A stretch of DNA of 50,951 nt from assembly GCA_016935355.1 (NCBI GenBank), contig JAFGRC010000051.1:1-50951 (forward strand), written 5' to 3'. This document shows, piece by piece, positions 31,887 to 34,017 of the stretch (positions within the stretch are counted from its first letter, which is position 1; the number at the start of each line of letters is the position of its first letter). The translations under genes and the position numbers were made by a program. The notes below the pieces were generated by a model, which was given only the letters and a program-made list of their open reading frames with translations, was not told where the DNA came from and did not search any database. The stretch is from Bacteroidales bacterium. Its GTDB lineage: Bacteria > Bacteroidota > Bacteroidia > Bacteroidales > UBA10428.

Positions 31887-32804
31887 TCAGGGTTCCGAAC
31901 TCAGAATATTCCTGTACTTTTCTCCCCGCGTGGGATCAATCTGATTGAGGATTGCCAGCAGACGTCTTTTTTCATCTTCCATTGATCCCTGGAAAAGATT
32001 AACAAATTCATCAGATTTTGCATCCAGTATTACCTGTAAAAAATACATAAATGGATCGGGACGTTCCAGATAGAAATCCCGGAGCAGGGTAAGACTTTCG
32101 GCACAATTGGTTCTCCCGTCGGCAAGCCGGTCATACATCAGATCCAGTCCCCGCCTGTGATAAATATAAACAAATTCACGAATAGGAGTATAATCATCGT
32201 TCAGAATATTGTTGATGAGCCAGTAGCGGTTTCTGCGGCTTGTACTTTCTCCTGCACGCCAGCCTCTTTGAGTTGCATTTTGGGCATTATTTACAATTTT
32301 CTCCGCTTTCAGGAAGAATTCATTACCCGATTCAAGCGCAAATGAATCGAAATCAAGTCCGAGAATTACATAAACATAAAATGCAAGGATGGATGTCAGG
32401 TTTGACAAATGAGATGTTTCACTGAATTCGAGTGGCTCAAACTCGGTGTAACGAAAATCAAGATCATTGTCGATATAATTCATCAGCACGGTATTGTACG
32501 ATGTATTGTATACGGGTCTCCTCACCTGAATCTGCAAAGTCCCCCTGAACTGGTCGTTCCCGATCATTTCCTGAATATTGAACAGCATGCTGCATTCGAT
32601 ACGCTCATTTGAAGCAAACCTGTAGCTGGTCCATGCCCTTGAATTGACAAATTCATTGACAGCTCCCTGCAGGGTTTGAAATACCTGTTTATTGGTCCCC
32701 TGGATCTGTTGTGTGGTGAATTGCACGTTACAGCGCAATTCCTGTGCATTTGCAGCGAAAGGAACAAACACCAGCAATGTTGATATAATGAATCTGATAA
32801 TCAT
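31887..32804 (-). CDS. DUF4835 family protein
   Basis: Signal peptide then QELRCNVQFTTQQIQGTNKQVFQTLQGAVNEFVNSRAWTSYRFASNERIECSM; typical position next to coaBC/recN in Bacteroidota. Confidence 0.88.
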   Translation of the reverse strand: MIIRFIISTLLVFVPFAANAQELRCNVQFTTQQIQGTNKQVFQTLQGAVNEFVNSRAWTSYRFASNERIECSMLFNIQEMIGNDQFRGTLQIQVRRPVYNTSYNTVLMNYIDNDLDFRYTEFEPLEFSETSHLSNLTSILAFYVYVILGLDFDSFALESGNEFFLKAEKIVNNAQNATQRGWRAGESTSRRNRYWLINNILNDDYTPIREFVYIYHRRGLDLMYDRLADGRTNCAESLTLLRDFYLERPDPFMYFLQVILDAKSDEFVNLFQGSMEDEKRRLLAILNQIDPTRGEKYRNILSSEP

Positions 32805-33391
32805 GATAGAAAGTCTGCTAAATAGGATACGATATCATGTGCTACTTCCTTTTTAGTTTTTAACTCAAATCGGATGATTTTATTATTCCTGTCAATAATT
32901 GTTATTTTATTGGTATCAACACCAAATCCTGCACCTTCGTCCTGAAGGGAGTTGAGCACAATGAAATCAAGATTTTTACGCTGCAGTTTTTGCGTGGCAT
33001 GATTTATGCCATTACTGGTCTCGAGTGCAAAACCTGCCAGAAATTGCCGGATTGTTTTAATTTTTCCAAGACCGGCAGCAATATCCTCTGTTGGTTCGAG
33101 TTCAAGGTTCAGGTTTGCAGATTTACGTTTTATTTTTTCACGTGAAGGGTTTTTTGGCCGGTAGTCTGCAACGGCAGCGGAAAGAATTGCCCCGTCCGCA
33201 ACGGTAAACAGTTCCATACAATAATTGTACATTTCCCGTGAGGTACGGACCCGGATCAGTTTTATTGCCGGATGAAGTGGTCGTTCTTCAACCGGTCCGC
33301 AAATCAATGTCACTTCTGCTCCACATTCCATCAATTCATTTGCAATGGCTATGCCCATTTTGCCTGTGGAATAATTACCGATGAAACGCAC
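32801..33391 (-). CDS. coaB: Phosphopantothenoylcysteine synthetase portion of CoaBC (N-terminal part in a different frame from the CoaC ORF)
   Basis: RFIGNYSTGKMGIAIANEL, VRTSREMY, ILSAAVADYRPK, FALETS, DFIVLNS. The same frame extends upstream of 33391 to the 10-A run at 33463-33472. Confidence 0.9.
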   Translation of the reverse strand: MRFIGNYSTGKMGIAIANELMECGAEVTLICGPVEERPLHPAIKLIRVRTSREMYNYCMELFTVADGAILSAAVADYRPKNPSREKIKRKSANLNLELEPTEDIAAGLGKIKTIRQFLAGFALETSNGINHATQKLQRKNLDFIVLNSLQDEGAGFGVDTNKITIIDRNNKIIRFELKTKKEVAHDIVSYLADFLS

Positions 33392-33456
33392 GGCATCAAC
33401 GGATTCGTACGTTGGTCCCGCAGTTACAATTATCTTTTTACCGGAAAGTGTGTTAT

Positions 33457-34017
33457 TCAGGCTTTTTTTTTTCGGTTGCTGAAGAATTCTGAAAGTGCAG
33501 CTAAAATGACTTCCGGTTCAACCATTCGTCCCTTTCCGGTAAGTCCGCTGGCGAGTTCACCTGTTGCCGGTTCCAGGATAATATTCCCGTATGAACGCAA
33601 AATATCCAAGTTCTTCCTGGTGGTGTCATGGTTTAACATGTCAACATCCATTGCAGGTGCTATGAATACGGGACATCTTGCTGACAGATAGGTCGTGAGC
33701 AGGAGGTTGTCAGCAATACCGCAGGCCATTTTTGCCATTGTATTTGCAGTCGCAGGAGCGATTACATAGGCATCAGCCCATAATCCAAGATCCACGTGAC
33801 TGTTCCATTGGCCGTTCTCAGGATTAAAGAAGTCTGTCAGCACGGCATTTCTGCTTAGTGAAGCCAGGGTAAGGGGGGTGATAAATTCCCGGGCCAGAGG
33901 TGTCATCAGGACTTTCACCTCTGCACCTTCTTTCATAAGCAATCTGATCAGGACTGCAGCTTTGAATGCAGCGATACTGCCCGTGACGCCCATCAGTATT
34001 TTCCTGCCACGAATCAT
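33457..34017 (-). CDS. coaC: Phosphopantothenoylcysteine decarboxylase portion of CoaBC
   Basis: MIRGRKILMGVTGSIAAFKAAVLIRLLMKEGAEVKVLMTPLA; HVDLGLWADAYVIAPATANTMAKMACGIADNLL; VFIAPAMDVDMLNH; terminates just past a poly-A run. Confidence 0.93.
   Translation of the reverse strand: MIRGRKILMGVTGSIAAFKAAVLIRLLMKEGAEVKVLMTPLAREFITPLTLASLSRNAVLTDFFNPENGQWNSHVDLGLWADAYVIAPATANTMAKMACGIADNLLLTTYLSARCPVFIAPAMDVDMLNHDTTRKNLDILRSYGNIILEPATGELASGLTGKGRMVEPEVILAALSEFFSNRKKKA

Follow-up and report, generated by a model that had tools for sequence, protein, structure and literature searches.

A ten-A run at the coaC/coaB joint of Bacteroidia as a candidate site of programmed RNA polymerase slippage

How does a cell make CoaB when the gene that encodes it breaks off directly behind a run of ten A? 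We met this question in the window, a stretch of 50,951 nucleotides from a Bacteroidales bacterium, in which the CoaC and CoaB domains lie in order at one locus and a joined product would require recoding. The bifunctional CoaBC (Dfp, PMC7794376) has the same domains in the same order; ordinary CoaBC is one open frame, whereas the window locus predicts CoaC alone as a second product. The first-pass annotation of this DNA had left two alternatives, slippage that yields CoaC and CoaBC or a one-nucleotide assembly error. Our results strongly favor slippage, with the two products deduced from the reading frames, and we give a probability of roughly three in four to the reading that one coaBC gene is read through a programmed RNA polymerase slippage site and yields both CoaC and CoaBC. 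If this is true, polymerase slippage would give rise to two forms of an essential enzyme of CoA synthesis, itself a drug target, across much of Bacteroidia. It would also matter for annotation: automatic pipelines split coaBC in two, and an essential step can then appear lost.

The coaBC locus of the window

On the minus strand, the joint reads AGC AAC CGA AAA AAA AAA GCC TGA, with the stop codon right behind A10 (Table 1). The first-pass annotation had described the CoaC ORF as halting immediately after ten A (33463-33472), which is borne out by the TGA at 33459-33457, and the -1 frame as leading directly into CoaB, which also holds: the frame continues SLNNTLSGKKIIVTAGPTYESVDAVRFIGN... to 32801, and its CoaB reading after A10, SLNNTLSGKKIIVTAGPTYESVDAVRF..., is open to the stop at that position. 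The CoaB ORF as it was originally called does begin at an internal GTG (33391) and lacks the VTAGPT strand. Starting CoaB there deletes the invariant T-x-G-P-T-x-E strand, and we consider this GTG implausible as a start because it removes VTAGPTYE. A scan of the CoaB frame in the window, from the last upstream stop to the VTAGPT strand, confirmed that it contains no ATG, GTG or TTG.

The CoaC and CoaB pieces match complementary parts of the bifunctional model TIGR00521 (2-183 and 182-391 of 392 positions), and the nearest solved structures to the products of the locus are CoaB and CoaBC proteins. The neighboring genes are, in order, a bamD-like gene (YfiO), an RNA polymerase omega-type gene, coaBC, a DUF4835 gene and a recN-like gene. 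A profile search with PF04127 (CoaB) found one copy in the 2.83-Mb genome and no intact second coaB. Between the window and its sister species (G002), CoaB has a dN of 0.125 and a dS of 0.72; therefore, the out-of-frame CoaB has been kept by purifying selection while split. Genome-wide run statistics, based on an A10 pattern search, show that runs of A10 or longer are scarce, with only eight in the window genome, and the A10 at the coaBC joint exceeds chance.

Table 1. Coordinates of the coaBC features in the window and of two further A10 runs in the same genome
Feature	Position	Strand	Remarks
coaC ORF (phosphopantothenoylcysteine decarboxylase, 186 aa)	33457..34017	-	ends KKKA-stop; Pfam PF02441 1.2e-32; TIGR00521 positions 2-183
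Putative slippery A10 (T10 on +) in CoaC/CoaB linker	33463..33472	-	A10-A13 in 10/10 genus members; modal length 10 across Bacteroidia
CoaC stop TGA	33457..33459	-	read from sequence
coaB (phosphopantothenate--cysteine ligase), -1 frame, entered at last A of run	32801..33463	-	SLNNTLSGKKIIVTAGPTYE...; PF04127 5.5e-65, whole model; TIGR00521 182-391
First ATG/GTG/TTG of CoaB frame (GTG)	33389..33391	-	inside conserved domain; implausible start
dnaX A10, codon 364, gamma/tau boundary	G000:C55:57626-57635 (L325)		window genome
priA A10, codon 46 (GKKKIY)	G000:C61:6411-6420 (L326)		window genome

Conservation and length of the A-run

The first-pass annotation had suggested looking among close relatives for the run and the offset, and had regarded in-frame relatives devoid of a run as evidence against slippage. 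All ten species of the window's genus carry A10 to A13 at the joint; the gene is split in seven, always at -1 (one A short), and fused in the other three, which retain the run. Run lengths among the split members are 10, 11 and 13, and the sister species, whose CoaB is 79% identical, shares the A10, the GCC TGA and the offset. Within the genus and the family, the in-frame relatives retain A10, so the condition set against slippage does not apply there. In the wider family, runs of at least nine A occur at 20 of 21 joints. A second family of the order (f8) has A≥9 within the scanned interval at 25 of 26 analyzed joints, split or fused, and the exception (L308) has its A10 just upstream of that interval. 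In f8, the joint reads GAA AAA AAA AAG TCC TGA where the gene is split, and TCA AAA AAA AAA CTT CTG where it is fused. Two members of f8 are unusual: the split linker of L308 contains about 50 extra nucleotides with a hairpin-like repeat (CCCGAACTTCTGTCGGGG) between A10 and CoaB, and L318 (G921) is the sole A-run split at +1, with an A12 that would need one A lost or two gained.

We surveyed 296 coaBC joints, sampled at each rank from the window's genus up to its phylum, with 80 named genomes in addition. Among culturable species, Marinilabilia salmonicolor and Mucilaginibacter limnophilus have A10 in a fused coaBC. The loci came from score-ranked match lists, and a number of splits were picked deliberately; these were excluded from the first set of the codon simulation described below. 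The surveyed rows are related to one another, which means that raw p-values overstate significance, and many of the genomes are metagenome assemblies, including all three named split cases (L171, L213 and L217). A run of at least nine A was present at 117 joints (88 fused, 28 split at -1 and one split at +1, with A12). The remaining 179 joints had A<9, and 174 of them were fused and five split (L055, L058, L061, L062 and L210). Roughly two in three coaBC genes of Bacteroidia have no run; therefore, the run is not essential to CoaBC generally. A class-wide pattern search, in which run and motif could be no more than 30 nt apart, undercounts such joints and misses the window itself.

Run lengths at the joints are concentrated at ten. 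At distances of up to 66 nt from the CoaB core, we counted nine A8, 21 A9, 57 A10, 12 A11, two A12 and one A13. The 57 A10 runs fall in 18 kb of joints, compared with a single A10 in the 264 kb of remaining coaBC sequence (A-run-selected loci included), which also holds six A9. We then asked what codon usage alone would produce in fused genes, in sets not selected for runs, by holding the protein fixed and redrawing codons from each gene's own usage. The simulation predicted 7.4 A10 and 1.7 A11 runs, whereas 28 and five, respectively, were observed; A9 (9 observed, 9.3 expected) and shorter runs were at expectation. In the two best-sampled families, A10 was observed 24 times against 2.4 expected. 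All three codon phases are represented among the A10 runs, which lie about 14, 28, 33 or 41 nt upstream of the CoaB core. A protein-level need for KKK as the cause of the run is ruled out by the codon simulation together with the three codon phases; the A-run is conserved at the nucleotide level, to an extent that the protein does not call for. Two points go beyond the first-pass annotation: the exact run length is under selection across Bacteroidia, and the independence of the run from codon phase points to transcriptional rather than ribosomal slippage.

On a 271-row tree of CoaC plus CoaB, the split state changes at least 13 times and the A≥9 state 34 times; therefore, the arrangement has been repeatedly gained, lost and switched. 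A phylum-wide sample of 141 CoaB-bearing genomes contained, besides the window, one other main CoaB match with a short open frame (G466, of the same class) and one further weak CoaB match (G884, E=2e-4). We also examined how soon a slipped reading would terminate. In the two slipped frames, fused A-run genes reach a stop after a median of 5 and 3 codons, compared with 16 and 9 in position-matched controls. On phylogenetically independent pairs, early stops persist in the +1 frame, with a median p of about 0.02, and find no support in the -1 frame. Because the strong raw counts are only partly upheld on independent pairs, we dropped early slipped-frame stops as proof of selection.

Some genomes depart from this picture in their CoaB content. 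Within the order, a PF04127 match is missing in 29 of 392 genomes, several of them 99-100% complete, and in one family of the phylum (f196) CoaB matches are weak (E about 1e-28 to 1e-34) or absent in many members. Genomes poor in PF04127 possibly have a non-orthologous CoaB or depend on a host. One contig (G146:C29; L321 and L322) carries a second, apparently decayed CoaB copy with an internal stop, and an intact coaBC lies elsewhere in that genome.

Explanations for the split frame

If the polymerase slips and adds As, three things are expected: a run length near ten, no dependence on codon phase, and rescue of DNA lacking a single A. Each of them is seen, and the -1 bias of the splits is expected as well. 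The RNA-DNA hybrid of RNA polymerase is 9-10 bp long, and the mRNAs made by polymerase slippage in Thermus dnaX have gained at least one A (both PMC5009743). The direction of the splits fits programmed -1 ribosomal frameshifting on A_AAA_AAA/G/C as well, of the kind found in E. coli dnaX and IS elements, with the long run merely boosting efficiency: 28 of the 29 A-run splits are at -1, which is also the way that ribosomes slip on A-rich heptamers. An A_AAA_AAA heptamer is present in phase at the window joint (CGA AAA AAA AAA GCC), A10 holds such an in-phase heptamer whatever the phase, and A_AAA_AAG or A_AAA_AAC occurs at many joints. However, seven A in one phase suffice for a ribosomal heptamer, yet A7 to A9 are unenriched and exactly A10 is enriched, in all phases. 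The E. coli dnaX and IS sites share with coaBC an A-rich slippery sequence and the -1 direction, but they depend on one 7-nt motif (A_AAA_AAG) in a single phase, accompanied by a stem-loop and a Shine-Dalgarno-like element, whereas the coaBC site is ten long and phase-free. No Shine-Dalgarno-like stimulator was found in 27 of the 29 splits (two have one), and the 60 nt downstream are unstructured (mean folding z -0.22). Both UUU and CUU anticodons are represented among the tRNA-Lys of the window genome, a condition discussed for polymerase-slipping Thermus (PMC5009743), and dnaX splits in the same family are at both -1 and +1; both observations count against the ribosome. An A10 always includes the ribosomal -1 heptamer, and sequence alone cannot separate ribosomal from polymerase slippage; on the evidence of length and phase, we consider the ribosomal explanation unlikely.

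A more prosaic account needs no program at all: A-runs in a tolerant linker would gain and lose bases, and the indels would persist through chance rescue by slippage or through phase variation at replication, as in Blochmannia and Buchnera. Close relatives do alternate between split and fused genes, and polymerase rescue of homopolymer frameshifts is seen in insect endosymbionts (PMC5009743; PMC4389277). Yet the genomes here are multi-megabase and not those of endosymbionts, and fused genes hold or regain exactly A10 (28 against 7.4 expected) though one synonymous AAG would end the hazard. Comparable runs are nearly missing from the rest of coaBC, and within the window genome the A10 of priA is unconserved while the dnaX and coaBC runs are conserved. 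We therefore regard tolerated noise as quite improbable. Translation of CoaB as a separate gene, from an unusual start or by re-initiation past the CoaC stop, is very improbable. True coaC/coaB pairs occur within the order, in some of its families (L055, L058, L061 and L062), and CTG, ATT or ATA codons are available in the window linker, but in each of these pairs coaB has its own ATG, 6-9 codons upstream of the core, and A≥9 is absent. Of the A-run splits first examined, 15 of 19 have no ATG, GTG or TTG before the CoaB core, and separate genes leave selection on A10 in fused genes unexplained. We rejected an independent CoaB start, as no standard start codon precedes the conserved strand in the CoaB frame of the window. 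Least credible is the first-pass annotation's other alternative, a one-base homopolymer error in the assembly of an ordinary in-frame coaBC. An A10 is error-prone, the assembly has 173 contigs and the -1 state corresponds to one lost A; against this, the same -1 offset appears in seven of ten independent assemblies of the genus, including the sister species with its same A10 and five more members with lengths of 10, 11 and 13. The -1 state extends to 28 genomes of many families, one of which has its split coaBC on a 4.47-Mb single contig (L054, G353), and the conserved A10 stands even if the window were erroneous. We rejected assembly error, as run and offset recur in independent assemblies.

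Two of the splits with A<9 deserve separate mention. In L058, coaC and coaB overlap by ATGA, and this is a genuine two-gene pair. The isolate Pontibacter mucosus DSM 100162 (L210) has a +1 coaC/coaB split with no A-run, which may reflect a sequencing error or else another solution.

A proposed mechanism and its parallels

Under transcriptional slippage, RNA polymerase would slip at A10 (T10 in the template) and produce a mixed pool of mRNAs. Those with ten A would give CoaC alone, stopping after KKKA, and those with one extra A (or 1+3n) would give full-length CoaBC, which would contain a trans-frame peptide spanning KKKSLNNTLSGK. In the in-frame relatives, the roles would be reversed: unslipped mRNA would give CoaBC and slipped mRNA CoaC alone. 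With either arrangement, the cell would make both forms. Cassettes of A11, A9 and A7 give 63, 40 and 10% frameshifting (PMC3711429). We infer from the sequences that it is the polymerase, not the ribosome, that slips, that both proteins are made and that their ratio has a role; the likely purpose is control of the CoaC:CoaB ratio or assembly of particles that mix CoaC with CoaBC.

The structure of Mycobacterium CoaBC suggests how such particles might look. That enzyme is a dodecamer with a CoaC core, CoaB dimers at the edges and a joining loop of about ten residues (PMC7794376). The coaBC A-run falls in the loop between CoaC and CoaB; CoaC alone could enter the core, and the product ratio may set the number of CoaB dimers per particle. 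More tentatively, at somewhat less than even odds, we propose that many Bacteroidia use an A10 polymerase-slippage program in two or more core genes, dnaX and coaBC among them. In coaBC, it would set the CoaC:CoaBC ratio and lead to mixed dodecamers with fewer CoaB dimers; gains, losses, shifts of position within the linker and switches between split and fused would all have happened many times, with the ratio and not the frame under selection. Sister species that differ in being split or fused would provide repeated natural experiments on programmed slippage, and make the function of CoaC without CoaB testable. The run length of ten is a possible signature for finding more slippage genes in this group.

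A close parallel is dnaX. Two-ORF dnaX genes with A10 are known from GeneTack and have been attributed to transcriptional realignment (PMC3711429). Like coaBC, Thermus thermophilus dnaX (A9, tau and gamma) has 9-10 A in coding sequence at a domain boundary; it is a single gene with a long and a short product, as predicted for coaBC, and its slipped mRNAs gain As. In dnaX of the Thermus or GeneTack type, as in coaBC, both split and in-frame DNA arrangements exist. The genes differ in that dnaX encodes a clamp-loader subunit and coaBC two enzymes of CoA synthesis, and, unlike dnaX, coaBC is nearly always split at -1, and the position and codon phase of its run vary between families. Citrobacter rodentium tssM1 and Yersinia tssM3 (A11, PMC4256274) resemble the predicted coaBC case in that slippage gives the longer product in the split species and the shorter one in the fused species. 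The A11 of Citrobacter tssM1 leads to about 20% long product, the Yersinia homologue is arranged oppositely, and both forms are needed (PMC4256274). The tssM product is a Type VI secretion protein, and polymerase slippage was proven there by mass spectrometry of the mRNA, whereas the coaBC case is known from sequence. We found no earlier report of slippage or frameshifting in coaBC in the open-access papers searched (supplements aside), and coaBC goes unmentioned in both surveys that we searched for it.

Among the eight places with A10 or longer in the window genome, three lie in the sense direction within long frames: coaBC, dnaX and priA. The second of these, dnaX, is a known slippage gene of the same type; its A10 at the gamma/tau boundary is predicted to slip and would be the same device as in coaBC, a point that the first-pass annotation had not raised. 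In the family, dnaX has A9 to A11 at the gamma/tau codon position in all 20 genomes with a readable boundary (L336-L393); this count leaves out G015, where the contig ends before the boundary, and G006 and G022, which have no dnaX match over the cut-off. Family dnaX alternates between one frame and two, with splits at both -1 and +1. Outside the home family, dnaX has A≥9 in nine of 13 genomes with a coaBC A≥9, compared with three of 13 others (p=0.047, nominal, in a hand-picked set). The priA run is mostly interrupted by AAG or AGG in relatives, and we treat it as a chance run.
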